A stretch of 64,000 bases of DNA from Halomarina pelagica (GTDB lineage: Archaea; Halobacteriota; Halobacteria; Halobacteriales; Haloarculaceae), in NCBI RefSeq assembly GCF_024228315.1, contig NZ_CP100454.1, forward strand, positions 1,612,001 to 1,676,000. The letters run 5' to 3'. The position numbers and the translations under genes were made by a program. The notes beneath the pieces were generated by a model, which worked only from the letters and a program-made list of their open reading frames with translations, made no database searches and had not been told where the DNA came from. How positions within the stretch are numbered: position 1 is the stretch's first letter; each line of letters begins with the position of its first letter. This document shows positions 7,210-21,059 of the stretch, piece after piece.

Positions 7210-7389
7210 CTACATGATGGACCGTTCGTCGGACCCGATGCGATCCTCGTCGAGCACCGCGATGAGGTTCGCGTAGGGAACGAACGCGATGAACTCCTCC
7301 GCCTCGGTGTAGAGTTCGACCCCGTGATCGCGCTCCTGATACTGGCTGCACTCGATGTCCCCGTCGGGGAGGATGGCACGGTACACCAT
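7210..7389 (-). CDS. Small hypothetical protein (59 aa)
   Basis: An ORF of 59 residues, MVYRAILPDGDIECSQY to DERSIM. It has an N-terminal beta hairpin, a central acidic helix (ELYTEAEEFIAFVPYANLIAV) and an acidic tail. Amino acid composition is typically haloarchaeal. It is close in size and style to small proteins that act as regulators in this group, but no function can be given. It starts at ATG 7389 and ends just past the convergent 74-residue gene. Confidence 0.65.
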   Translation of the reverse strand: MVYRAILPDGDIECSQYQERDHGVELYTEAEEFIAFVPYANLIAVLDEDRIGSDERSIM

Positions 7390-7467: not shown

Positions 7468-8052
7468 TTACGGCGATGAGTCTCCGGGGGCGCTCCCCGA
7501 GTCGAGGTGTTCCGCGAGCCCCCACTCGGCGGCGCGCCGCTCGGCCTCGACGCGCGCCTCCTCGCGGATGGCGGCGATGCGCGCCTCGTCCGCGAGAAAC
7601 GCCTCGAGCGCGTCGAGGCCGTCTCCGTCGTCCCCCAGCCGGTCCGCCGGCGCGCGCGCTCGCGTCCGGTCTGCGAGCGCCGGGTCGCCGGCGAGCTGTT
7701 CGGCCGGCATGCCCGGCGGGACGCGCACCTCCGGGGTGTCGTGCGCCTCGCTGAGGTGTCGCGGCGCGAGTTCGTACAGGTCGAGGCGGCAGGGACCGGA
7801 GGGCGCGAGGTCCGCGAGCGCCCGCGGGCCGCCCGCGTCGGTGCCGACGTGGTAGGCGAGCACCGGCACCCCGTCCTCGAACGTCAGGACGGCGCGACCG
7901 TCGTCGCCGAGCAGGAGCGTCTCCTGGGGGGCGAGCACAGCGTAGCCGGTCAGCGCCCGCGAGAGCGCGTCCTCGAGGAGCACCCCGACGCCCTCGATCA
8001 CCCGCGAGCGGACGAGACGGCCGCGCGGGATGGACAGCGCGTCGACGCTCAT
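7468..8052 (-). CDS. MinD/ParA-coupled hypothetical protein
   Basis: A 194-residue protein whose ATG overlaps the stop of the MinD-like gene (ATGA), so translation is almost certainly coupled. Residues 1-110 form a beta-rich domain (VLAPQETLLLGDDGRAVLTFEDGVPVLAYHV). The rest is a long Ala/Glu/Arg-rich helix ending DSSP. There is no enzymatic motif. The pairing resembles haloarchaeal MinD2 loci, in which a small partner protein follows the ATPase and the pair affects motility and shape. That parallel is inference. Confidence 0.75.
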   Translation of the reverse strand: MSVDALSIPRGRLVRSRVIEGVGVLLEDALSRALTGYAVLAPQETLLLGDDGRAVLTFEDGVPVLAYHVGTDAGGPRALADLAPSGPCRLDLYELAPRHLSEAHDTPEVRVPPGMPAEQLAGDPALADRTRARAPADRLGDDGDGLDALEAFLADEARIAAIREEARVEAERRAAEWGLAEHLDSGSAPGDSSP

Positions 8053-8816
8053 GGCGTGTCGGGGATCACCGCGCTGCGGAAGCGGGCGGCCACGTCGTCG
8101 GCGTCGCCGACCCGCACGTCGAGCGCCCCGGCCGCCTCGCGGAACGCGCGGGACGCCGGGGCGTCCGGGGCGTGCGCGAGGAGGGGCTCCCCCGCACGCC
8201 TGGCCGCCCCCGCCGCGTCGCTCTCGGGGACGGTCCCCAGCGTCGGCCCGTCGAAGTAGCGCTCGACCTCGGCCGCGATCCGGTCGATCGCGCCGTCGTC
8301 GCGCACGCGGTTGAACAGCACGCCCGCCGTCCCCGTGCCGTAGGAGCGGGCGTACTCCTGGACCTTCAGCGCGTCCGACAGCGAGGGGATGGTCGGCTGG
8401 AGGACGACGACGATCCGATCGGCGAGCACCACGGGCAGCACCGCGCTCTTGCTCCCCAGCGCGGCGGGCGAGTCGAGCAGGAGGACGTCCGCGTCGTCCG
8501 CCAGCTCCGCGACGACCTCGCGCAGGCGGGTCGGGTCGGCCTCCCGGAAGGCCGCGAGGCTCGTCCCGCAGGGGACGACGCGCATCCCGAAGCGGTCGTA
8601 CGTCGCGCGCTCGACCGGCGCGGCCCCGAGCAGCACGTCGTGGAGCGTCGCGTCCGCGTCGTCGAGACCGGTGTGAAAGAGCAGGTTCGCCATCCCCGTG
8701 TCGGCGTCGACGACCGTCACGTCATACTCCTCGGCGAGCGCCATGCCGAGCGCGAGCGTGCTCGTCGTCTTCCCCGTGCCGCCCTTGCCGCTGGCGACCG
8801 CGAACGCCTCGACCAT
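8049..8816 (-). CDS. MinD/ParA-like P-loop ATPase
   Basis: A 255-residue deviant Walker ATPase. Walker A is GKGGTGKTT near residue 10, with the two lysines typical of MinD/ParA; VDADTGMANL and LLLDSPAALGS follow. Such proteins dimerise on ATP and position polar or membrane assemblies. A GTG nine bases upstream is possible, but MVEAFAVASGKGG is a natural start. It is the fifth gene of a minus-strand chain that begins with archaellin (12487), with 40 bases to the gene above and an ATGA overlap with the gene below. A role in placing the archaellum or related envelope complexes is a reasonable inference. Confidence 0.9.
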   Translation of the reverse strand: MVEAFAVASGKGGTGKTTSTLALGMALAEEYDVTVVDADTGMANLLFHTGLDDADATLHDVLLGAAPVERATYDRFGMRVVPCGTSLAAFREADPTRLREVVAELADDADVLLLDSPAALGSKSAVLPVVLADRIVVVLQPTIPSLSDALKVQEYARSYGTGTAGVLFNRVRDDGAIDRIAAEVERYFDGPTLGTVPESDAAGAARRAGEPLLAHAPDAPASRAFREAAGALDVRVGDADDVAARFRSAVIPDTP

Positions 8817-8856
8817 GACCCTCACTGGGTGCCCGATACTACCTAAATCTTGATAT

Positions 8857-9378
8857 TCACTCCCTGATGTCTGTCGTCTCGAGCAAGAGGTCGAGCACCT
8901 CGGCCGGGTCGTCCTCGGGGGCGAGTCGCTCGACGTACCAGCGCAGGAGGTCCGCGAAGATCGCCCGCACGTCGTTCGCGCGGAACCGCTCGTCGGCGAC
9001 GCCGCGATCCGTCTTGACCGCGACGTCCACGGCGTACCGCTCGGGAACGTCGGCGAGCGAGAGGCGAGAGGTTGTAGGAACGGAATCGGGGACGGGAGCG
9101 GGAGCAGCCGGTTCGCCGTCGCGCTCCGGCCTGATGAGGAAGCGTCCGTCCCCGAGGGCTCTCGCGCGCGGATCGTCGAGCGCGAGGTCGTCCGACGCGA
9201 GGACCCCGTCGTCCCCCGGCGGACCGTCCGAAGTGCGAGCGTCGATCGGTCGCGGTCCGGGCGGGCGGGCGTCGGTCCGCCGAGCGTCGGTGGCGGTGCG
9301 GGCGTCGCCGTCCGTGCGGGTCTCGCGGTCCGGGCGGGCGTCGGCGTCGGTGTCGGTGTCGGTGTGAGTTCGCGTCAT
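8857..9378 (-). CDS. DUF7500-like hypothetical protein
   Basis: A 173-residue protein. Residues 1-75 are a disordered Thr/Asp/Arg repeat (THTDTDTDAD, then RTATDARRTDAR). Residues about 76-115 hold a short 'VLASDDLALDD..LGDGRFLI' element of the kind I associate with DUF7500. Residues 120-173 form a helical domain ending LLLETTDIRE. Its ATG overlaps the stop of the membrane protein gene (ATGA). The much longer open frame upstream on this strand is a shadow of that gene. Function unknown; coexpression with archaellin is implied by layout. Confidence 0.8.
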   Translation of the reverse strand: MTRTHTDTDTDADARPDRETRTDGDARTATDARRTDARPPGPRPIDARTSDGPPGDDGVLASDDLALDDPRARALGDGRFLIRPERDGEPAAPAPVPDSVPTTSRLSLADVPERYAVDVAVKTDRGVADERFRANDVRAIFADLLRWYVERLAPEDDPAEVLDLLLETTDIRE

Positions 9379-11366
9379 CGTCTGAGGGTGAGCGTCGTCT
9401 CGAGCAAGTCGGCGAGCGGCAGGGCGAAGGCCCGGCCCGCGCCGAGGTATTCGATCCCGGAGAACAGCGCGAAGAGCGCCATCGCCGCCAGGGAGGTCCC
9501 GAGCGCGACGGCGAGGGCGGCGTCCGCCGCGCCCGACCGATCGCCGATCCCCGCGGCGGCGGCGCAGACGGCGAGCGTCGCCGCGACGGTCAGGTTCGCC
9601 ACGGCGTGCGCCTGCATCAACGCCCCCGCGGACAGTCCGGCACCGGCGAGCCCCACACCGAGGACGAGCGCCCCCGCACCGGCCGCGACGAGCGCCGCGA
9701 CCCACAGCGCTCGCCAGCGGTCGGTCACCGCGCGGGACACGGGCGAGGAGAGGCACGCGACGAACAGGAGCGCCGGGACCGTCGGCGCGAGGTACCGGAC
9801 CGTGACGGTCGAGTGCAGCGGCAGCCGCGGGAGGTACAGGAGGGTACAGAGGACGGCGAACGCCCCGACGAACGCCCCCGTCCCGATCGCGGGCGAGTCG
9901 AGGGGCGAACCGCCCGACGATCGTCGACGGCCGATCGCGACGGGAACCGCGGCCAGGCACGCGAGGACGGGCGCGACCTCGAGCAGCGCCAGGTCGATCG
10001 TCTCGCCGCCGGTCTGGGAGTAGTCGACGCCGGGGATACGGCCGCTGCGCACGAAGACGTGGTAGAGCCGCGAGCCGTCGGTGACGACCGCGTAGCCGCG
10101 CCCCAGCAGGCCGGAGAGCGTCGTCAGGGCGTCTCCGCCCGCGGCGACGACCGATCCGACGGCGGCCACCGTCGCGGTCACGGCGGCCGAGAGACGCTCG
10201 ACGAGCGAACGGACGGGCGCGCCGTTCGACGTGCCCCCGCCGCCCCCGCCCGCGGTTCCGGGCGACCCCCCCGGGGACGCCCCGTCCGCGCCGGCCGTCG
10301 GGCTCGAACCGCCTGCGCCGATCGACGGCGCGGGCGACCCGGGCGACGCCGCGAGGTCCTGTCCGACGTAACTCGGTAGCATCCGCGGCGGGACGAGCGG
10401 GTTCCCGGCGACGAGCAGGTTCGTGAGGAGGAAGGGCGCGAGCGCGAGCGCGAAGACGCCCGCGACGACCGCCAGCCGCCGTCGGTCGTTCGAGCGTGCC
10501 GTGAGCAGGTCGAGGGGGACGAGCGCCGCGAGGAGCACGACCGCGTCGGGCGCGCTCACCCAGGCGGCCAGCGCGACGGCGGCGTACGCGAGCGCACGGT
10601 GGCCGAGCGCGTCGACGGCCCGGCTCCGGTAGAAGCCGTACACCGCGACGAGCGCGAGCAGCGCGAGCAGGACGTGGCGCTTCGGCACGACCGCCCAGAA
10701 CCCGACGGGACCGAGCAACCCCGTCGCGCTCGCGGCGAACGCCGCCGTCCGACGGCCGCGAGCCGCGAGCGCGAGCCGATAGGCGACGACCACGACGAAC
10801 CCGGCGGCGAGGAGCGTGCTCGCCTGGAGCGCGACGAGCGGGAGCGCCCGATCGGGCAGGGCCGTCGCGGTCGCGAGGTTCGCGACGAAGAGCGCCGAGG
10901 CGAGTCCGACGCCGACGGTCGCGGCCCTCCGCGGTCGCCCCAGTTCGCGACCGGCGAGGGCGACCGCGCCGTAGACGGCGAGCGACCACGCGCCCGCGAC
11001 GGCGAGGCGCACGTCCGCGACGAGCGCGACGGCGCGCAGGAGGAACAGGACGGGCAGGGCGAGCGCCACCTGTCCGTAGTTGCGCCCGTAGCGCCGGCCG
11101 TGCGCGTAGTACGTCCCCGGCGTCGCGCCGCCGTCGGGTCCGTAGACGACCGTCTCGATCGCCAGATGGCCCCGTTCGAGGTTGGCGAGCGCGTTCGCCA
11201 GCGCGAACGTGTCGACGATGAAGACGTCGACGCGCCAGTAGAGCGCGTAGAACGCCACCGCGCCGAGGAAGAGCGCGACGCCCGCCCGGTCCCCGAAGAC
11301 CGCGCGGACGAGGCGGGCACGGGTCGGTGACGCCCGGGGCGTCGGTAGCGGGAGGCGAGGAGTCAC
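9375..11366 (-). CDS. GT-C-like multispanning membrane protein
   Basis: A 663-residue protein with about 13 hydrophobic segments and a Gly/Ser/Pro-rich extracytoplasmic loop near residues 330-390. The first segment, followed by YWRVDVFIVDTFALANALANLERGH, and an extracellular-type loop (YYAHGRRYGRNYGQVALALP) resemble lipid-linked glycosyltransferases of the GT-C fold or their relatives. No catalytic motif is certain. The start is GTG 11366, overlapping the previous stop (GTGA). Its position two genes after archaellin, which has N-glycosylation sequons, suggests a role in surface glycan or filament modification, but a transport role is equally open. Confidence 0.8.
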   Translation of the reverse strand: MTPRLPLPTPRASPTRARLVRAVFGDRAGVALFLGAVAFYALYWRVDVFIVDTFALANALANLERGHLAIETVVYGPDGGATPGTYYAHGRRYGRNYGQVALALPVLFLLRAVALVADVRLAVAGAWSLAVYGAVALAGRELGRPRRAATVGVGLASALFVANLATATALPDRALPLVALQASTLLAAGFVVVVAYRLALAARGRRTAAFAASATGLLGPVGFWAVVPKRHVLLALLALVAVYGFYRSRAVDALGHRALAYAAVALAAWVSAPDAVVLLAALVPLDLLTARSNDRRRLAVVAGVFALALAPFLLTNLLVAGNPLVPPRMLPSYVGQDLAASPGSPAPSIGAGGSSPTAGADGASPGGSPGTAGGGGGGTSNGAPVRSLVERLSAAVTATVAAVGSVVAAGGDALTTLSGLLGRGYAVVTDGSRLYHVFVRSGRIPGVDYSQTGGETIDLALLEVAPVLACLAAVPVAIGRRRSSGGSPLDSPAIGTGAFVGAFAVLCTLLYLPRLPLHSTVTVRYLAPTVPALLFVACLSSPVSRAVTDRWRALWVAALVAAGAGALVLGVGLAGAGLSAGALMQAHAVANLTVAATLAVCAAAAGIGDRSGAADAALAVALGTSLAAMALFALFSGIEYLGAGRAFALPLADLLETTLTLRR

Positions 11367-11878
11367 CCGCGCACCTCCACCCGGACGGTGCGGTTCAGCA
11401 GCGTCAGTTCGCGGTCGCCGTAGGCGACGGCGACGACCAGGTCGGCGTCGTAGCGATCAGCGCTCACGGCCGACGACGCCACCGGACCGCCTCCGGGGGT
11501 GAGCGCGAGCGTCCGCGAGTCGAGCGCCGCGACGCCCTCGTCCGTCTCCCAGGAGCGGTTCAGCGCGGGGATCGTCAGTCGGGCAGTCACGCGGACGGGC
11601 GTCTCGCTCGTCCGCACGGCGAGTTCGACCGTCGCGTCCCGGAGTTCGTAGCCGTCGGTTCGCCGCTCGAGCGCGACGCGCTCGGGCACGGCGATCGGCG
11701 CGGCGGAGAGGCGGTGGACGACGCCCATCGTCTCGTCGCCGCCGAAGCCCCGGTACAGGTCGTCAGGATACGTGTCCGTGGGAGTATAGTCGACGAACGG
11801 CACGAACGGACCGGACGCGACGGCGACGACGCCGAACGCGAGCGTCAAAAGAATCGCCGGAGAGCGGTCTGAGGTCAT
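11363..11878 (-). CDS. Exported hypothetical protein linked to archaellin
   Basis: A 171-residue protein with a hydrophobic N-terminal segment (about residues 8-28) that could be a signal peptide or anchor. A beta-rich extracytoplasmic domain follows (VELAVRTSETPVRVTARL, LLNRTVRVEVRG). No cysteines or known motif. It starts 21 bases after the archaellin stop and overlaps the GT-C-like gene by four bases, so it belongs to the same transcript. Function unknown. Confidence 0.75.
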   Translation of the reverse strand: MTSDRSPAILLTLAFGVVAVASGPFVPFVDYTPTDTYPDDLYRGFGGDETMGVVHRLSAAPIAVPERVALERRTDGYELRDATVELAVRTSETPVRVTARLTIPALNRSWETDEGVAALDSRTLALTPGGGPVASSAVSADRYDADLVVAVAYGDRELTLLNRTVRVEVRG

Positions 11879-11899
11879 TACGTCTGTTCGTCAGGTGGT

Positions 11900-12487
11900 T
11901 CAGACGCTGACGTAGTCCTTGCCGGTGAGCACGTCGGGGACGTTCACGCCGTAGATGGACGACGCGCCGGACTGGTCGACGAGCTGGAGTTCGACTTCCT
12001 CGCCGGCGGCGATCCCGGTACCCTCGATGTCGTCGGCGCTGACGGTGATGACGAGCTTCTCGCCGGTGTCGAGGACGGTGTCGGACGCGGCGCTACCGTC
12101 GGTGTCGTTGACGCTGAACGCGGTTCCGTTCGCGGTCGCGGCCTGCGTCAGCGTCGCGCTCGCGGTGTCGCTGGTGTACTGGACCGTCGCCTCGGAGAGG
12201 TCGATCGGATCGGCACCGGCGGCCTTCTTCACGACGAGTTCGACGTCGTTGACGTCGCCGTTCGCGGAGTCAACGACGCCGGTCGCGCTGATGACGTCGA
12301 TGTGGTTGCTGACCTGTGCCCGTGCGTCGGCACCGGTGTCCTCCGCCTGCGACTGCAGCACGCCGGACGTGTTGATGAGCACGCCCGCGGCTACGGCGGC
12401 GACGAGCACCAGCGCGATGAAGATGATGAGCGTGCCGATACCGACCTGGCCGCGCTCATCCGCGGTTTCGTTGTTGAACAGTTTCAT
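11900..12487 (-). CDS. Archaellin (archaeal flagellin)
   Basis: A 195-residue filament subunit. The class III signal ends ADERGQ, with the cleavage site for the prearchaellin peptidase before [21 protein letters not shown], the conserved N-terminal helix that forms the filament core. The outer domain is beta-rich and acidic and ends TGKDYVSV. The mature part has three N-glycosylation sequons (NTS, NGT, NDT). The start [14 protein letters not shown] is family-typical, so the longer open frame upstream is rejected. It is the only archaellin in the window, divergent from the arl motor genes. Confidence 0.96.
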
Positions 12488-12796: not shown

Positions 12797-13930
12797 ATGT
12801 TCAAGGCACTCACACAGCTCTTCGGCGGCGCGCGAGACGGCGAGGACGCCGACGGCGACGACGACGCCGACGACTCCGGGACGTCGCCGGCGGAGGCCAA
12901 CGACTCCGACGGGCCCCCGGAACCGGGCCGCGACGCACCGGACGGGGAGTCCCGAGTCGGGGGAGGGGACGGCGGCGGGGGTAACGGCGGGACGATCGAC
13001 GCCGAGACCGGCGACGGGACGCCGGAGGGCCCGACGACCGTGGACGACCTCGAGTACCGACTCGGCGAACTCGAATCGGAGCTTGAGGCGGCGATGCGGT
13101 CGGTCGAGCGCACCGAGCGCGCACAGGAGGACGTGGAGGAGACCGTCGAGGAGGTCGAGGACACGGTCCGCCGCCTCCTCGGCGTCTACGACCGACTGAC
13201 CCGCGAGGCGAACCCCTTCGCGGACGGGGTCGCCAGGGAGGGAGGGCGGTTCGGGGTCGTCGGGCCGGTCGACGGCGATGGCGACCTCGACTCGGCCGAC
13301 GGCGCTGACGAGACCGACGGCACCGACCAGACCGACGGTACTGACGAGACCGGCTCAGTCGGGCGCACCGACCCGGACGACGCGCCCGGGGCGGGGACGG
13401 AGGCGGGCGCGGAGAGAGCGGAGGGCGTGGAGAGAGCGGAGGCGGACGGAGCGCCGGGGACGGGGAGCGGCGACGGCCCACCCGGTGCGGACGCCGACGC
13501 GAGCGGGGACGAGGGTCGGCACGACGACCCCCCGTCGTCCGACGGCGTCGTCACGGTCGACGACCTCAAGCGCGCGGCGGCCGACGGCCCGCCCGATGCG
13601 AGCGACGGTCCGGTCCTGCTCGCGACGGTCGCGGAGACGTACCCCGCGGACGCGCTCGCCTTCGAGTGGCTCTCGACGCTGGTCGAGACGGCCGGACCGG
13701 CCGGCGCGGTGAAGGCGCTCGGGTACTACGAGACCGTCGGCTGGATCTCCGACGACGTGCGTTCGTACCTCGAACAGGCGGTCTCGGGACCCGGCATCGA
13801 CATCGACGTCGATCCGAACGACCCGCGGGACGTCACCGCCGCGGATCACGCGACGAGCTACGACTACGTGATGAAACTCCGGGTCGTGGGCGACCTCGAG
13901 ACCGCCGGCGCGGCCGCCGTCGAGGGGTGA
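12797..13930 (+). CDS. arlCE: Archaellum protein ArlCE (FlaC/FlaE fusion)
   Basis: A 377-residue cytoplasmic archaellum component that links the motor to chemotaxis input through CheF in euryarchaea. The N-terminal 75 residues are an Asp/Gly linker. Residues 80-140 form the ArlC-type coiled coil (LEYRLGELESELEAAMRSV, EDVEETVEEVEDTV). Another acidic, Thr/Asp-rich linker follows. Residues about 250-345 are the Arch_fla_DE domain (YPADALAFEWLSTLVE, GAVKALGYYETVGWISDDVR). It is first in the arlCE-F-G-H-I-J operon, with one base before arlF. The long linkers are low-complexity and haloarchaeal in style. Confidence 0.92.
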   Translation: MFKALTQLFGGARDGEDADGDDDADDSGTSPAEANDSDGPPEPGRDAPDGESRVGGGDGGGGNGGTIDAETGDGTPEGPTTVDDLEYRLGELESELEAAMRSVERTERAQEDVEETVEEVEDTVRRLLGVYDRLTREANPFADGVAREGGRFGVVGPVDGDGDLDSADGADETDGTDQTDGTDETGSVGRTDPDDAPGAGTEAGAERAEGVERAEADGAPGTGSGDGPPGADADASGDEGRHDDPPSSDGVVTVDDLKRAAADGPPDASDGPVLLATVAETYPADALAFEWLSTLVETAGPAGAVKALGYYETVGWISDDVRSYLEQAVSGPGIDIDVDPNDPRDVTAADHATSYDYVMKLRVVGDLETAGAAAVEG

Positions 13931-13931
13931 G

Positions 13932-14375
13932 ATGGGCTTCAGTGCGAGCGGTGCGACGGCCGTCGTCTTCGTCGGACTCCTCGTGAGCGTCGGCACCCTC
14001 GCGCCGGTACTCGACGCGAGCTACGAACGGCGTTCGGAGGCGCAGGACCGACGGGCGGAACGCCTGCTCGACCGCCGGGAGACGGCCGTCGAGACGGTGA
14101 ACGCGACCTACGACAACTCGACCGGGGAGGTGACGCTCGTCGTCGCGAACGCCGGGACGACCGGGCTGTCGGTCGACGACACTGACCTGCTCGTCGACGG
14201 GCGGTACGTCGCGAACTGGACGGCGAGCGTCGAGGGTGATCCCGGGCGGACGACGTGGCTGAGCGGCGAGAACCTGACCGCGACGGCGACGGCCCCGACG
14301 AAGCCCGAGCGCGTCGTCCTCGTCACCGAGACGGGGATCCGGGCGGTCGCGACGGACGTCGTGGAGGTGCCCTGA
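13932..14375 (+). CDS. arlF: Archaellum stator protein ArlF
   Basis: A 147-residue membrane-anchored protein with one N-terminal helix (about 7-27) and a beta-sandwich outer domain (TGEVTLVVANAGTTGLSVDDTDLLVDGRYV). In other archaea ArlF binds the S-layer and, with ArlG, holds the motor still. Length and position between arlCE and arlG match the family. Its stop overlaps the arlG ATG (TGATG). Confidence 0.92.
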   Translation: MGFSASGATAVVFVGLLVSVGTLAPVLDASYERRSEAQDRRAERLLDRRETAVETVNATYDNSTGEVTLVVANAGTTGLSVDDTDLLVDGRYVANWTASVEGDPGRTTWLSGENLTATATAPTKPERVVLVTETGIRAVATDVVEVP

Positions 14376-14833
14376 TGGCGAGCGTCTCCGTCTCGAACCT
14401 CGTGCTGTTCATCGCGGCGCTGACCGTCGCGGTCGGCGTCTCGGGGACGATGGCGTCGAGCGTGGCGGACATCAGCGAGGCGCTCGACGACAAGAGCCTC
14501 GACGTGAGCCGGGACATCGACACCGAGATCGAGGTGATCAGCGACGCCGGGAGCGACGCGGTGTACGACGACTCGACGGGGACGGTCACCCTCCTCGTGA
14601 AGAACACCGGCCGCGCGACGCTCCCGAGCGCCCCCGACCGGATCGACGTGCTCGTCGACGGGCGGTACGTCGAGGCGAGCGCGAAGTCGACCCGCGTGCT
14701 CGACGACTCCGCGTGGACGAGCGGGAGCGTCCTCGAACTGACCGTCGATCGGTCGCTCGCGGCGGGCGAACACCGCGCGGCCGTCGTCGTCGACGGTGAC
14801 GAGGAGGTATTCGAGTTCCACACCGGACCATGA
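14375..14833 (+). CDS. arlG: Archaellum stator protein ArlG
   Basis: A 152-residue partner of ArlF with the same layout: an N-terminal hydrophobic helix (LVLFIAALTVAVGVSGTMA) and a beta-sandwich domain (TGTVTLLVKNTGRATLPSA, LVDGRYVEA). The ArlF-ArlG complex sits outside the cell membrane and contacts the S-layer. The start chosen, MASVSVSN, overlaps the arlF stop by one base. It overlaps arlH by four (ATGA). Confidence 0.92.
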   Translation: MASVSVSNLVLFIAALTVAVGVSGTMASSVADISEALDDKSLDVSRDIDTEIEVISDAGSDAVYDDSTGTVTLLVKNTGRATLPSAPDRIDVLVDGRYVEASAKSTRVLDDSAWTSGSVLELTVDRSLAAGEHRAAVVVDGDEEVFEFHTGP

Positions 14834-15543
14834 CCGACCACTACTCCATCGGACTGGAAGCGCGCGATCGCGTGAACCACGCTATCGGCGGCGGACTCCC
14901 CGCCGGGCACGTCGTCCTGATCGAGGGACCGGACGGCGGCGGCAAGAGCGTGCTCGGCCAGCGGTTCGCCTACGGACTGGCCTGCGAGGGGACGCCGACC
15001 GCGTACGTCTCGACGGAGCTGTCGAGTTCGGGGTTCGTCGATCAGATGCACTCGCTGTCGTACGACGTGGTGGATCACCTGCTCGCAGAGCGCCTGCTGT
15101 TCGTCCGCGCCGACGTGACCGGCGAGCGCCGCCTGCTCGCGCGGCTGATGGACGACAGCCCCCTCTGGCGGGCGGACGTGCTCGTCGTCGACGGGCTCGA
15201 CGCCATCCTCAGGAACGACCCCGAGGTGGTCGCGGCGCGCTCGCGCGGCGAGGACGGCCGCGTGCTCCAGTCGTTCGTCGCGCGGCTGGGGCAGGCGACG
15301 GCCGCCGAGAAGACGGTCGTGCTGACCGTGAACCCGGAGCCGGTCAGCGAGCGCGCGATGCGCCCGCTGCGCGACGCGGCCGGCGTCTACCTGGAGATCG
15401 AGACGACCCCCGTCGGCCAGGACATCAGGCGTAGCGCCCTCGTCCACCGGTTCGCCGAGATGGCGAACCCCGTGAACGACACCATCGGGTTCTCGGTCCA
15501 GCAGGGGCGCGGGATCACCATCGAGAGCCGGACCGTCGCATAA
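14830..15543 (+). CDS. arlH: Archaellum ATP-binding regulator ArlH
   Basis: A 237-residue KaiC/RecA-like protein that binds ATP, forms rings under ArlI and controls motor assembly. The Walker A is GPDGGGKSVLGQ (near residue 34) and the Walker B LVVDGLDAI. It starts at ATG 14830 and abuts arlI with a one-base overlap. Length is normal for the family. Confidence 0.94.
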   Translation: MTDHYSIGLEARDRVNHAIGGGLPAGHVVLIEGPDGGGKSVLGQRFAYGLACEGTPTAYVSTELSSSGFVDQMHSLSYDVVDHLLAERLLFVRADVTGERRLLARLMDDSPLWRADVLVVDGLDAILRNDPEVVAARSRGEDGRVLQSFVARLGQATAAEKTVVLTVNPEPVSERAMRPLRDAAGVYLEIETTPVGQDIRRSALVHRFAEMANPVNDTIGFSVQQGRGITIESRTVA

Positions 15544-17225
15544 TGGCGGAGTTCGGGACGCGACACCTCGGAGGGGAGCTTGCGGCGGCGGCGCGACGCC
15601 ACCGTCACCTCGCGGAGCACCTGGAGGCGTTCTACGACCGGGTCGGGGAGTACCCCCTCCTGATCGACGGCCCGACGAAGGAGTACGCCTCGCGCCGCCC
15701 GAACGTCATCTACCACGCCGACGGCCCCATCTACAGCCACGTCCACGGCGACCGGGGGACGGCCACCCGCTACTACTGCGTCGAGCCGACGCTGACGGCC
15801 GAGGGGCGGGCGCTCTACGCCGAGGTGCGCGAGCGCGTCCTCGATCTGAGCGCGACTCGACCGCCGCCGAACGCCGAGGAGGCGTTCACCGACTTCGTCG
15901 ACGACATCCTCGACGACGTCCTCCGGATCGACGACGGCGGGGCCGCCGGCCCCCTCGCGACCCTCCGGGACCGCCTCGGCGTCGGTCGCATCCGGGTCGA
16001 CGAGGAGACCGCCTCGCGGCTCCGCTACTACCTCCGGCGGGACATCGTCGGCCTCGGCCCGCTCGAACCCGTGATGGCCGACGACGCGAACGAGGACGTC
16101 CACGTCATCGGGCCGGACGGCTGCTACGTCGACCACGCCGTCTACGGGATGCTGGAGACGACCGCGACCTTCGAGAGCGACGAGGCGTTCCAGAACTGGA
16201 TCCGCAACATGGGCGAGCGGATGGACAACCCGGTGAGCGACTCCCAGCCGATCGTCGACGCCACCCTCCCGAACGGCTCGCGCATCAACGTCATCTACTC
16301 CGACGACGTCTCGATCAAGGGGCCGTCGCTCACCATCCGCCAGGGCGAGGACGTCCCGCTCTCGATCCTCCAGATCACGAAGTGGGGGACGCTCTCGCCC
16401 GAACTCGCGGCGTACCTCTGGCTCTGCCTGGAGAACGAGCGGACGGTCTTCGTCGTCGGCGAGACCGCGAGCGGGAAGACGACGACCCTCAACGCCACGT
16501 TCTCGTTCATCCCCCGCGACCACAAGATCTACACCGCGGAGGACACCGCCGAGGTGATGCCACCCCACGACACCTGGCAGCAACTGCTGACCCGCGAGGG
16601 ACAGGGCGGCGGGGACGCCGACGTGGACATGTTCGACCTCGTGGCCGCCGCGCTGCGCTCGCGACCCGACTACATCGTCATGGGCGAGGTGCGGGGCGCG
16701 GAGGGACAGATGGCGTTCCAGGCGGCCCAGACCGGCCACCCGGTACTGCTCACCTTCCACGCGAGCGACATCGTCTCGATGATCCAGCGGTTCACCTCCA
16801 ACCCGATCAACGTCCCCGAGACGTTCATGGGCAACTGCGACGTGGCGCTGTTCCAGAACCGCGTCAAGCGCGGCGACGACGTGCTCCGCCGGGTGACGAG
16901 CGTCCAGGAGATCGAGGGCTACTCGAAGCACGAGGGGGGCGTCATCACCCGCCAGGCGTTCGGCTGGGACCCCCGCGACGACGAGATCGTCTTCCAGGGG
17001 CGGAACAACTCCTACGTCCTCGAGGAGGGGATCGCGCCGCTGCTCGGCTACCACGACGTCCGCGAGATCTACGACGAACTCGACGAGCGCGCGGGGATCG
17101 TCCGCGCGCTCATCGACGCGGACGTGCTCGGGTACCACGAGGTGAACGCCGCCATCGAGGGCTACCAGCGCGACGGCCTGGAGGGCCTGCCGATCGACGT
17201 CGGCCGGGCGGGGGTGCGCTCGTGA
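15543..17225 (+). CDS. arlI: Archaellum motor ATPase ArlI
   Basis: A 560-residue hexameric secretion-type ATPase that powers assembly and rotation. After a variable N-terminal domain it shows Walker A (GETASGKTT, near residue 305), an Asp-box region, Walker B (DYIVMGEVRG) and the His box (GHPVLLTFHAS). The C-terminal tail is longer than in crenarchaeal homologs, as usual in haloarchaea. It overlaps arlJ by four bases, which implies coupled translation of ATPase and membrane platform. Confidence 0.96.
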   Translation: MAEFGTRHLGGELAAAARRHRHLAEHLEAFYDRVGEYPLLIDGPTKEYASRRPNVIYHADGPIYSHVHGDRGTATRYYCVEPTLTAEGRALYAEVRERVLDLSATRPPPNAEEAFTDFVDDILDDVLRIDDGGAAGPLATLRDRLGVGRIRVDEETASRLRYYLRRDIVGLGPLEPVMADDANEDVHVIGPDGCYVDHAVYGMLETTATFESDEAFQNWIRNMGERMDNPVSDSQPIVDATLPNGSRINVIYSDDVSIKGPSLTIRQGEDVPLSILQITKWGTLSPELAAYLWLCLENERTVFVVGETASGKTTTLNATFSFIPRDHKIYTAEDTAEVMPPHDTWQQLLTREGQGGGDADVDMFDLVAAALRSRPDYIVMGEVRGAEGQMAFQAAQTGHPVLLTFHASDIVSMIQRFTSNPINVPETFMGNCDVALFQNRVKRGDDVLRRVTSVQEIEGYSKHEGGVITRQAFGWDPRDDEIVFQGRNNSYVLEEGIAPLLGYHDVREIYDELDERAGIVRALIDADVLGYHEVNAAIEGYQRDGLEGLPIDVGRAGVRS

Positions 17226-18934
17226 ACTCGGAGCGCGCGTTCGAGGTGAACCTGCGCCGGGCGGTCGCCGCCGTGATCGACTCGTACCGTCACCTCGGGA
17301 CGTCCCTCCGTCGGTACGTCCTGCTCGCGCTCCTGCCGTCGGCGCTGTTCGCGCTCGGGGGCGTCGGCGCGACGGTCGCGCTGTCGCTCCCGCTCTCGAT
17401 CGGCGGCCCCCTGTCCCTCCTCGGGACCTTCACCTTCGTCGTCGCCGTCGCCTACCCGAAGGTGGTGGAAGACCGGAAGCGAAAGCAGGTCCGCGAGCGG
17501 TTCCACCTCTTTCTGACCCACGTCACCGTGCTGTCGATGACGAACATCGACCGCGTGGAGGTGTTCCGGACGCTTGCGGCGGAGGAGGAGTACCGCGCCA
17601 TCGCCGAGGAGATGGCGCGGATCGTCGCCCTCGTCGACACCTGGAACCAGAGCCTCGACGACGCCTGCCGGATGCGCGCCCGGCGCGTCCCGAGCGACCT
17701 GCTCGCGGACTTCCTCGAACGGCTGGCCTACACCGTCGGTGCGGGCCAGGAACTCGGCGACTTCCTCGTCGCCGAGCAGGACAGCATGCTCCAGCAGTTC
17801 GCCATCCGCTACGAGGGTGACCTCGCCAAGCTGGACGTGCTGCGCGAACTCTACCTCTCGCTGATGCTCTCGGTGACGTTCATCCTCGTGTTCGCCACCG
17901 TCCTGCCGATCATCGTCGGCGTCGAGCCGACGCTGCTCGTGGGCGGGGTCGTCGGCCTGCTCGCGGTCGTCCAGTGTGGCTTCCTGTTCGTCGTCCACAC
18001 CGTCGCGCCGTACGATCCCGTCTGGTACGCCTCGGGGATCGACCGCACGCCCGCCCGGCGGGTTCGGCGGACGCTCGTCGCGGGCGTGGCCGGCACCGCG
18101 CTCGCCGTCGCGGGGGCCGCCGCGGTCCGCCTGGGGGTCACCCCCGTCGATCCCGCCGGGGTCCCCCTCGCGGCGTACGTGGCCGTACCGGTGACGCCGC
18201 TGCTCCTGCCGGGACTGGCGATGCGTCGCGAGGAGAACCGCGTGAAGGAGCGTGACGAGGGGTTCCCGCCGTTCGTCCGGGCGCTGGGGAGCGTCGAGAG
18301 CGTCAAGCAGACCTCGACCGCGAACGTCCTGCGGACGCTCCGGCGGAAGGACTTCGGCCCGCTCACGGAGAACGTCGATCACCTCTACCGGCGGCTGAAC
18401 ACGCGCATCGACACGACGCGCGCCTGGCGGCTGTTCGCCGTCGAGACGGGGTCGTACCTCATCCAGAAGTTCGGAGACATGTACGTGATCGGGCGGCGGA
18501 TGGGCGGCGACCCGAAGCGCCTCGGACAGGTCATCAGCCGGAACATGACGGAGGTGCTCAAGCTGCGCGAGCGGCGCGCCCAGGAGACCGCGACGTTCGT
18601 CGGCGTCGTCTACGGCATCACCGCCGCGAGCGTCTTCTCCGCGTTCGTCGGCCTCGAGATCGCCGTCCTCCTGACGGACATCGCGAAGGGGTTCGACGCC
18701 GACAACCCGATGATGCACACGCTGTTCAACCCCGAACGCTACGACGTGGCGACGATGGAGTTGCTCCTGCTCTTCGTCGTCCTCCTGAACGCGCTCGTCT
18801 CGGCGGTGATGATCCGCATCATGGACCGCGGACACACGGTCAACGCCTACCACCACTTCGTGCTGCTCACGTGGCTCGGTGCGGGCGTCGCCGTCGTCAC
18901 CGGAGAACTCATCGGGAGCCTGATCACCGTGTGA
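17222..18934 (+). CDS. arlJ: Archaellum membrane platform ArlJ
   Basis: A 570-residue polytopic protein with two T2SSF-type halves: about residues 30-260, with helices around YVLLALLPSALFALGG and LMLSVTFILVFATVLPIIVG, and about 285-560, with FVGVVYGITAASVFSAFVG and the final ATGE helix. It anchors ArlI and the filament. The start is GTG 17222 in the sequence CTCGTGAAC. This is the only start that gives a full-length N-terminus and it overlaps the arlI stop. The open frame further upstream is a shadow of arlI. Confidence 0.93.
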   Translation: MNSERAFEVNLRRAVAAVIDSYRHLGTSLRRYVLLALLPSALFALGGVGATVALSLPLSIGGPLSLLGTFTFVVAVAYPKVVEDRKRKQVRERFHLFLTHVTVLSMTNIDRVEVFRTLAAEEEYRAIAEEMARIVALVDTWNQSLDDACRMRARRVPSDLLADFLERLAYTVGAGQELGDFLVAEQDSMLQQFAIRYEGDLAKLDVLRELYLSLMLSVTFILVFATVLPIIVGVEPTLLVGGVVGLLAVVQCGFLFVVHTVAPYDPVWYASGIDRTPARRVRRTLVAGVAGTALAVAGAAAVRLGVTPVDPAGVPLAAYVAVPVTPLLLPGLAMRREENRVKERDEGFPPFVRALGSVESVKQTSTANVLRTLRRKDFGPLTENVDHLYRRLNTRIDTTRAWRLFAVETGSYLIQKFGDMYVIGRRMGGDPKRLGQVISRNMTEVLKLRERRAQETATFVGVVYGITAASVFSAFVGLEIAVLLTDIAKGFDADNPMMHTLFNPERYDVATMELLLLFVVLLNALVSAVMIRIMDRGHTVNAYHHFVLLTWLGAGVAVVTGELIGSLITV

Positions 18935-19070: not shown

Positions 19071-19532
19071 ATGGGAACGACGAAGCCGTACCTCACGAAC
19101 CTTCACAACTCGCCCGAGCAGACGCCGTACGTCCTCGAGTGGACCGAGTTCCTCGGCGGGACGTTCGGCGCGAGCGGCGCGCTGAACGCGCTTCAGTACT
19201 ACGAGCTGCTCGGCTGGATCACCCCCCGCGTTCGCCGCCAGATGGCTGAGTACCTCCAGGGGCTGTCGACGGGCGAACTCCACACCAAGAAGTACGACGA
19301 ACCGGCGGCGGTCGAACTCCCGCTGGAGTCGCTCTCCGGGACGCCGTTCGGCGTCCACGCCCGCTCGCTCGCCTACGTCGCCGCCATCGCCGGGGACAAC
19401 CTCGGCTCGGAACTCGCCGCGGTCCAGGTCGCGGAGAGCCGGATCGAGGAACGGGGTCGCGCAGAGCGACGGGAGGAGTCGGCTTCGAAACGCGACGGGG
19501 TCGCGCGCTCCGTCCCCATCGAGGAAGACTAG
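19071..19532 (+). CDS. arlD: Archaellum protein ArlD (Arch_fla_DE domain)
   Basis: A 153-residue soluble protein. Residues 5-75 are the Arch_fla_DE domain (YVLEWTEFLGGTFGASGALNALQYYELLGWITPRVRR), the same fold as the end of ArlCE. The rest is helical and ends in an acidic and basic tail. The family helps dock chemotaxis input on the archaellum. It is 136 bases beyond arlJ and probably still in the operon. It is convergent with cbiP (12 bases between stops). Confidence 0.9.
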   Translation: MGTTKPYLTNLHNSPEQTPYVLEWTEFLGGTFGASGALNALQYYELLGWITPRVRRQMAEYLQGLSTGELHTKKYDEPAAVELPLESLSGTPFGVHARSLAYVAAIAGDNLGSELAAVQVAESRIEERGRAERREESASKRDGVARSVPIEED

Positions 19533-19544
19533 GGACGAAGGGAG

Positions 19545-21059
19545 CTACGGGAGCGAGAGCGCCGCCAGGTCGACGTGCTCCCGGACGAGGCGCGCGGCGC
19601 GGTCGTACGGCGACGGCGACGTCACCGCACGGGGGCGTTCTACCCCCCGATGCGCGTAGACCGCGTCGAGGAACGCCTCGCGCGCGATCCGGTTCTCGAA
19701 CAGTCCGTGGAGGTACGTGCCGAACACGCGGTCGGTCGCCGCGCCCTCAGCTCCGCGCTCCCCCTCCGCGGGGAACGGCCGTTCGATCGGCGCTCGCGGC
19801 CGCGTCCGACCCATGTGGATCTCGTACCCCGACACCCGACCCGACGCGCCGGCGAGCGGACCGCACCCCGTAAGGGTGCGCGTCACCGGTTCGACCCGCT
19901 TCGCCCCCTCGAATCGGGTCTCGACCGGGAGGAGGCCGAAGCCGTCGAGTTCGTCCGCGTCGCCCGTCCCCTCGACGCTCGCGTTCGCGAGCCGTTCGCC
20001 GAGCAGTTGATAGCCGCCGCAGAGCCCGACCACGGGCCCGTCGAAGGCGGCGAGGCGGTCGCCGAAGCCCGCCGCGCGGAGCGCGAGCAGGTCGTCGACG
20101 GTGTTCTTCGTCCCCGGGAGCACGAGCGCGTCCGCGCCGTCGAGCGGCGCGTCGAGCGGGAGGTAGGTGACCCGGACGCCCGGTTCCCGCGCGAGCGGGT
20201 CGAGGTCGGTGAAGTTCGAGATGCGCGGGAGCCGGGGGACGGCGACCGTGACCGCGCGGTCGTCGGGGACGCCGTCGTCCGCACCTCGAACCGCCGCCCC
20301 GCCTCCCGCCGGGAGCGAGACGCTGTCCTCCTCGGGGAGGCCCGGGTCGTCGTAGGGGAGGACGCCGAGGACCGGTACGCCGAAGCGGTCCTCGAAGGCC
20401 TCGACGCCGGGATCGAGCAGCGAGCGGTCGCCGCGGAACTTCGTGATCACGCAGCCGACGACCCGCTCGCGGAGGTCGTCGGGCATCAGTTCGAGGGTGC
20501 CCGCGAGGCTGGCGAAGACGCCGCCGCGCTCGATGTCGGCGACGAGGACGATCCGCACGCTCCCCGACCCGCGGTCCGCGAACCGGGCCGTCTCGACGTT
20601 GGCGAGGTCGCGGTGGTGGAGGTTGATCTCCGCGACGCTGCCCGCGCCCTCGGCGACGATCACGTCGTGGTCGGCGGCCAGCCGTCGCCAGGACGCCTCG
20701 GCCGCGGCGCGGGCGCGCTCCCAGTGCTCGTCGTAGTAGTCGCCCGCCGCGAAGTGGCCGACCGCGCGCCCGTCGATCACCAGTTGCGACTCGCCCCCGC
20801 CGCGCGGTTTGAGGAGGACGGGGTTGTGGTCGGTCGTGGCGGGGATCCGGGCGGCCCGCGCCTGCACGTACTGGGAGACGCCGATCTCCCCGAACCCGCC
20901 GTCGGGCGTCGCGACCGCGCGGGCGTTGTTCGACATGTTCTGGGCCTTGAACGGCGCGACGCGCACGCCGGCGTCGGCGAGGACGCGACACAGGCCGGCC
21001 GCGACGGTCGACTTGCCGACGTGCGAGGCCGTGCCCGCGATCAGGTACGTTCTGACCAT
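19545..21059 (-). CDS. cbiP: Cobyric acid synthase CbiP
   Basis: A 504-residue glutamine-dependent amidotransferase that amidates adenosylcobyrinic diamide at b, d, e and g to give adenosylcobyric acid. The N-terminal P-loop-like [10 protein letters not shown] (9-18) and KAQNMSNNA mark the synthetase domain. The C-terminal GATase has the nucleophile in GLCGGYQ and the histidine in TYLHGLFEN. Full length. It belongs functionally with cbiA and the cob operon downstream but is transcribed alone, upstream of a divergent DoxX gene. Confidence 0.95.

Follow-up and report, generated by a model that had tools for sequence, protein, structure and literature searches.

How does an archaellin gene come to be followed, on the same strand, by the gene of a MinD-family ATPase, and do the two belong together? 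This question is raised by a stretch of 64,000 nt of the haloarchaeon Halomarina pelagica (contig NZ_CP100454.1; the whole stretch is called the window in the following, and positions are counted within it). Here, six minus-strand genes follow each other in the order archaellin, exported protein, multi-pass membrane protein resembling glycosyltransferases of the GT-C type, DUF7500 protein, MinD-family ATPase and a partner of the latter (Table 1). The original prediction regarded these genes as one operon connecting the filament subunit to a possible glycosylation step and a positioning ATPase, alongside a divergent arl motor cluster. The layout it described was confirmed at every position, with gaps of 21, -4, -4, 40 and -4 bases in order, the exported and GT-C-like genes overlapping by GTGA, the GT-C-like and DUF7500 genes by ATGA, and minD and the partner gene by ATGA; the 21 bases separate archaellin and exported gene, and the 40 bases DUF7500 and minD. 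The motor cluster is likewise present and comprises ArlCE, ArlF, G, H, I and J as well as a second ArlD/E-domain gene. Besides the PF01917-type stator genes ArlF and ArlG, the archaellin is the only one that a search of the genome itself revealed. By analogy, the best reading is that the exported and GT-C-like genes represent an archaeal counterpart of pilin-accessory cassettes beside an ordinary MinD2 pair. With moderate confidence, we thus regard the block as an archaellin modification cassette, the modification probably being glycosylation, next to a MinD2 pair with a promoter of its own.

Two junctions of the block recur widely, namely exported/GT-C-like and MinD/partner. Relatives of the GT-C-like protein were found in 35 of the 97 genomes searched (the window's own included), and 55 loci provided 53 copies whose surroundings were compared; two loci (L137, L146) were left out for want of a callable start codon, and three fragments (G028:C142, G047:C3 and G037:C1:2384492) are not among the 53. 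An exported gene lies directly upstream of 45 copies; 46 upstream open reading frames (ORFs) were called, including one wrong-frame ORF (L149), which was discounted. The 4-base overlap between both genes was present in 38 of the 46 called, and the pair is a stable, tight two-gene unit. A profile of the exported family that was built without the proteins of the window and of G009, a genome of another genus, recovered both of them (E 3.6e-14 and 1.2e-4, respectively). In comparison with Pfam, this family produced only weak matches of single members, and in profile searches of the PDB only chance matches.

The linkage of this unit to filament genes was assessed by simple motifs for the N-terminus of archaellins or PilA-type pilins, located on the same strand in the 3.5 kb upstream. 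Such a motif precedes 35 of the 53 copies, comprising 14 archaellins and 21 PilA-type pilins (an example of the latter matches PF07790), whereas none was found downstream; one copy has a motif on the opposite strand, and 963,484 strand-bases of MinD loci (L031-L056) serving as background contained none. Every filament-linked copy possesses the exported gene (35/35), compared to 10 of the 18 others (Fisher p 4.9e-5, with copies not being independent of each other). In a hold-out of nine genomes outside the first set, obtained by searching 146 genomes from the order, the motif was upstream of 7 of the 15 copies and downstream of none, and 13 featured the exported gene. Accordingly, the originally suspected glycosylation step tied to the filament subunit gains in substance, in that archaellin or pilin genes are repeatedly followed by exported/GT-C-like units. 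A tree was computed from 52 copies, excluding the partial copy L158; in it, the archaellin-linked ones form a single supported clade with 16 rows, all but two of them preceded by an archaellin motif. This clade stays linked across seven genera, and its first branch consists of the window and G009, the only two cases with an archaellin immediately before the exported gene. In G009, archaellins, exported and GT-C-like genes are likewise divergent from ArlCE to ArlJ and an ArlD/E-domain gene, and the MinD pair is situated on a different contig from this arl block. Other Haloarculaceae, e.g., at locus L122, show an arl/che cluster with the order archaellin(s), DUF7500, exported, GT-C-like, CheY, CheC, CheD and motor genes, and also in further arl clusters DUF7500 relatives lie between archaellin and exported gene. 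The window resembles such clusters in gene content; in contrast to them, the archaellin branch of the window and G009 points away from the motor genes, with DUF7500 in last place and without che genes in between.

The same surroundings allow another explanation, in which the exported/GT-C-like pair is a general surface-glycan or S-layer set that often lies near filament genes and does not act on filaments. Several copies without a filament neighbor indeed adjoin Wzy_C, nucleotidyltransferase, sugar transferase, GT2 or STT3 genes, and no filament motif is upstream of 18 of the 53 copies or of 8 of the 15 in the hold-out. Nevertheless, a set of this kind is hard to reconcile with motifs that occur upstream on the same strand and never downstream or in the background, with a clade that keeps its archaellin linkage from genus to genus and with an exported partner tied to the filament-linked copies, so that we consider this explanation doubtful. 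As observations in their own right, the second GT-C-like copy of G009 (L114) lacks an exported partner and comes after an STT3-domain protein, and G045 (L129) has, at a distance of about 13 kb from its arl-linked copy, another GT-C-like copy that possesses the exported partner and is close to a CheF gene. Pilin-type or unlinked units (L100-L102, L105-L108 and others) very often precede a phosphoribosyltransferase gene, and some are flanked by Mrp/NADH-dehydrogenase-like genes, with labels that do not derive from a family search.

Turning to the second part of the block, the partner of MinD was detected in 61 of the 97 genomes, and MinD was directly upstream of it in all 26 named loci. These include three Haloferax species, in which MinD is 77-78% and the partner 48-50% identical to the proteins of the window. 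Judged by sequence and gene order, the two genes are the conserved haloarchaeal MinD2/HVO_0596-type pair; we infer the correspondence to HVO_0595 and HVO_0596 themselves via the other Haloferax species and the gene order in the available text of PMC11588486. According to this text, MinD2 (HVO_0595) and HVO_0596 are a neighboring pair in Haloferax volcanii, MinD2 acts on cell shape and motility, and the single deletion of HVO_0596 is without phenotype (PMC11588486). The likeness comprises the succession of MinD and partner gene and its haloarchaea-wide conservation, whereas the pair of the window adjoins the archaellum cluster, which is the case at none of the three Haloferax loci. A fold model of the partner by AlphaFold2 showed no Foldseek match at E 0.001, no VIA-align Z of 5 or more and no clear PDB relative. 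A DUF4388-like domain, considered as a guess for this protein, was dismissed, since no Pfam match supported it.

In most relatives, the pair is unlinked to archaellin genes, an outcome that the original prediction had itself named as a refutation. Among 37 genomes with both partner and ArlH, both are on one contig in 24 and within 10 kb in only four, i.e., the window and the genomes G065, G080 and G092; the other 33 have them on separate contigs or at a distance exceeding 10 kb. Moreover, the pair is kept in 24 genomes without detected ArlH, including six of the seven Halomarina congeners. Because so few pairs are linked and so many persist without ArlH, the pair is not a dedicated part of the archaellum, and it came to adjoin arl genes more than once. 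G065, G080 and G092 are all sampled members of one other family (3/3), and their arl genes are on the opposite side of the MinD pair compared with the window. In these loci (L117, L118, L119), MinD and partner are directly followed, all in one orientation, by a helix-turn-helix regulator and by archaellin/DUF7500 and arl genes.

In favor of the original prediction, the linkage of MinD and arl genes proved to be older than the species. In Halomarina halobia, the closest named relative (partner 87% identical), and in G005, cobQ adjoins minD with about 100-180 bases in between, and the flanks share about 76-93% DNA identity with the window; neither ArlH nor ArlCE was detected in any of the seven congeners. 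Behind cobQ, a C-terminal end matching that of the second ArlD/E-domain gene is present in H. halobia (20 of 21 bases, a short match compared by eye) and, more weakly, in G005. Before minD, the 3' end of DUF7500 is recognizable over 35 codons at 51% identity in G005 and over few codons in H. halobia. As the spacer keeps the 3' ends of both border genes, the common ancestor probably had the arl cluster between cobQ and minD, and the congeners lost it by deletion. A fresh insertion of an arl island at this site was rejected on account of the same 3' ends, and the alternative that ArlD/E-domain and DUF7500 copies resided there before an arl insertion is less simple. By the testimony of these remnants, the linkage of arl and minD predates H. 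pelagica, and both units are old neighbors in the clade. An arrangement of DUF7500 ahead of MinD was observed only in Halomarina, mostly as a remnant. In G001 (L109 6155-6379), a longer C-terminal DUF7500 piece lies before minD, with its N-terminal half gone and no arl genes detected.

Whether old neighbors are also transcribed together is a separate matter. An A/T-rich box at -34 to -25 upstream of MinD is present in 56 of 56 distinct sequences from 60 loci, the window included, according to a motif list written after viewing the sequences; control positions displaced by 10 to 40 bases gave 0 to 3 matches. In the window, the box reads TTTAGG and falls inside the 40-base gap between DUF7500 and minD. 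Such a box A position fits a haloarchaeal promoter with a transcription start at or near the ATG. A transcription start upstream of minD2 is reported for H. volcanii in the available text of PMC11588486. The conserved box suggests a separate start of minD also in the window, and read-through from archaellin into minD is possible in addition. Of the single six-gene operon, the close coupling of archaellin, exported, GT-C-like and DUF7500 genes is retained, and the one transcript into MinD is not. A functional operon, in which filament subunit, envelope step and positioning ATPase would be co-transcribed and filament production matched to polar placement, agrees with the common strand and the short spacing interrupted by a single 40-base gap. 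It further agrees with the three genomes of the other family, in which arl genes of the same orientation immediately follow MinD and partner, with the remnants in the congeners, with the action of MinD2 on Haloferax motility in the text cited above (PMC11588486) and with the FleN/MinD ATPases linked to type IV pilus loci in the available text of a census (PMC4858521). It is nevertheless unlikely, in view of the box shared by every distinct MinD upstream sequence, the rarity of arl genes within 10 kb, the congeners keeping the pair with no detected ArlH and, in the other family, arl genes that flank the pair on the opposite side. The case of MinD illustrates that tight spacing alone can mislead, as an old neighbor with a conserved box of its own resembles the tail of an operon.

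With the MinD2 pair set apart, the modification cassette depends on the nature of the membrane protein. GT-C enzymes feature about 11-13 membrane segments, and the first of their outer loops, following segment 1, contains an acidic residue. Averaged over 29 relatives, the hydropathy profile displays roughly 13 peaks, and D52, invariant in all 29 aligned relatives, lies just past the first hydrophobic peak (30-43), presumably on the outer side. Little or no variation is seen at R95-N96-Y97, R230-H231 and R524-Y525. Relatives also show GT-C-type profile matches below the cut-offs, with PMT_2 in 5 of the 29 (best 22.8 bits, cut-off 26.1) and an LA_3751-type family of putative glycosyltransferases in 16 (best 28.2 bits, cut-off 200), both covering the same stretch of the proteins. 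That the pair would instead be a non-enzymatic assembly aid for filament subunits, like TfpY for pilin in Pseudomonas, is quite improbable, for although some accessory proteins behind pilA do not modify pilin (available text of PMC11841053) and the association with filament genes is closest for the exported protein, the charged and polar residues just named and the sister copies in glycan loci fit an enzyme.

Several points weigh against the modification cassette and are considered together here. No GT-C profile matched any of the 29 relatives at its curated cut-off, the protein of the window matches no Pfam family, a profile search for PDB sequence relatives gave only chance matches, and its single-sequence fold model was too poor for a structure search (predicted local distance difference test, pLDDT, 41.8). 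Because of the sub-cut-off profiles, the missing PDB relative and the failed fold model, the protein is, by its sequence, named GT-C-like and not filed as a member of GT-C. Regarding the linkage, the filament motifs were written after the first cases were known, the hold-out rate (7/15) is below that of the first set (35/53), with some genera common to both, and the exported partner also accompanies 10 of the 18 copies without filament neighbor. Only 23 of the 53 genomes with ArlH are positive for a GT-C-like protein. Furthermore, AglB, the customary enzyme of N-glycosylation, which is encoded in the window's genome unlinked to the cassette, could account for all archaellin glycosylation, and the separate transcription of minD is deduced from upstream sequences.

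On balance, the block can be pictured as two units. The first would consist of archaellin, exported protein, GT-C-like protein and DUF7500. After insertion of the archaellin into the membrane and its processing, the GT-C-like enzyme, anchored beside it and with the exported protein as extracytoplasmic partner, would transfer a sugar from a lipid carrier to the archaellin or its glycan before or during filament assembly. The exported protein might tether the substrate or the enzyme. The same cassette with a different GT-C-like copy would serve PilA-type pili in relatives, the pair probably decorating, by analogy, the subunit encoded upstream. Enzymatic activity, substrate and the part played by the exported protein are what we infer from this arrangement. 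The second unit, MinD2 and the HVO_0596-type partner, would be a positioning ATPase module under its own promoter, and the two neighbors would not need to act jointly. Given that AglB is present and the archaellin has N-x-S/T sites (read from its sequence), the cassette could either elongate the N-glycan or attach a further modification. A use for such a step is plausible from Halobacterium, where shortened archaellin glycans lead to filament bundling and poor motility (available text of PMC11239922). As a tentative generalization, with the chances rather against it, haloarchaea of several families might possess a dedicated two-protein transferase, independent of AglB, with copies duplicated for archaella and PilA-type pili, each behind its subunit gene, which would set filament surface properties, e.g., bundling, adhesion or virus attachment.

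The nearest known counterpart is the pilA-tfpO and pilA-tfpW arrangement of Pseudomonas aeruginosa, in which a transferase gene likewise stands behind a filament-subunit gene on the same strand, as at 9375-12487 in the window; TfpW presumably belongs to GT-C. The glycosyltransferases TfpO and TfpW are encoded behind pilA, and the cassettes differ by pilin, according to the available text of PMC11841053, and TfpW is a GT-type arabinofuranose transferase according to the title of a reference cited there. The likeness concerns gene arrangement and description, and the archaeal unit differs by always including an exported protein when filament-linked and by serving archaellins as well as pilins. 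In archaea, filament glycosylation is described via AglB and the Agl enzymes (available text of PMC11239922). The decoration of archaellins by AglB would share with the proposed step its location at the outer membrane face, whereas the GT-C-like protein is of a different family and has its own exported partner. Known before were MinD/FleN ATPases near pilus loci and a PF12840 regulator near archaellin genes (available text of PMC4858521). The view that the combination looks undescribed has held up within the literature searches made: those on haloarchaeal filament-linked glycosyltransferases listed no description of the exported/GT-C-like pair, a literature search returned no paper on DUF7500, and the word stem glycosyl is absent from the available text of the census (PMC4858521). 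If the reading is correct, archaea would feature a further transferase, linked to filament genes and equipped with a partner, and this enzyme pair would be amenable to gene removal and mass spectrometry. It would explain how the archaella and pili of one cell could bear different sugars, and provide an archaeal parallel to the pilin-specific glycosyltransferases of bacteria.

Table 1. Features of the archaellin to MinD block and its surroundings in the window.
Feature	Position	Strand	Basis and remarks
Archaellin	11900..12487	-	PF01917 125 bits (cut-off 29.5); TIGR02537 43.3 bits (cut-off 20)
Exported protein	11363..11878	-	One predicted N-terminal membrane segment and extracytoplasmic domain of ~130 aa; alignment of relatives
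GT-C-like multi-pass membrane protein	9375..11366	-	Archaellin-linked clade; sub-cut-off profile matches in relatives, tree, hydropathy, invariant D52
DUF7500 protein	8857..9378	-	PF24332 57.1 bits (cut-off 27)
TTTAGG, probable minD box A promoter element	8842..8847	-	-31 to -26 from minD ATG
MinD-family ATPase, MinD2 type	8049..8816	-	Deviant Walker A GKGGTGKTT; TIGR01969 194.1 bits, just below cut-off 201.75
MinD partner, HVO_0596-type	7468..8052	-	Alpha/beta N-terminal domain and C-terminal helices; AlphaFold2 model pLDDT 82.9
Small 59-aa ORF after partner	7210..7389	-	97, 71 and 66% identity in congener loci L031, L099 and L109
ArlCE, first gene of divergent arl cluster	12797..13930	+	PF04659 and PF05377
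ArlF, ArlG, ArlH, ArlI, ArlJ	13932..18934	+	NCBIfam matches above cut-off for each
Second ArlD/E-domain gene	19071..19532	+	PF04659 66.9 bits; 3' end persists as remnant after cobQ in congeners
CobQ, flanking gene	19545..21059	-	NCBIfam cobyric acid synthase 537.9 bits; adjoins minD in H. halobia and G005

Some minor features complete the inventory. At E 0.1, no Pfam family was assigned to the exported, GT-C-like and partner proteins of the window, and the 59-aa ORF behind the partner gene has no Pfam match either. Pilin-accessory cassettes feature a terminator after the subunit gene; at the junction between archaellin and exported gene, the window showed no significant hairpin of the terminator or attenuator kind (z -0.59, with 49 of 200 shuffles as stable). 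In H. halobia (L031 10844-13324), the 59-aa ORF is separated from the next gene shared with the window by three genes absent from the latter.

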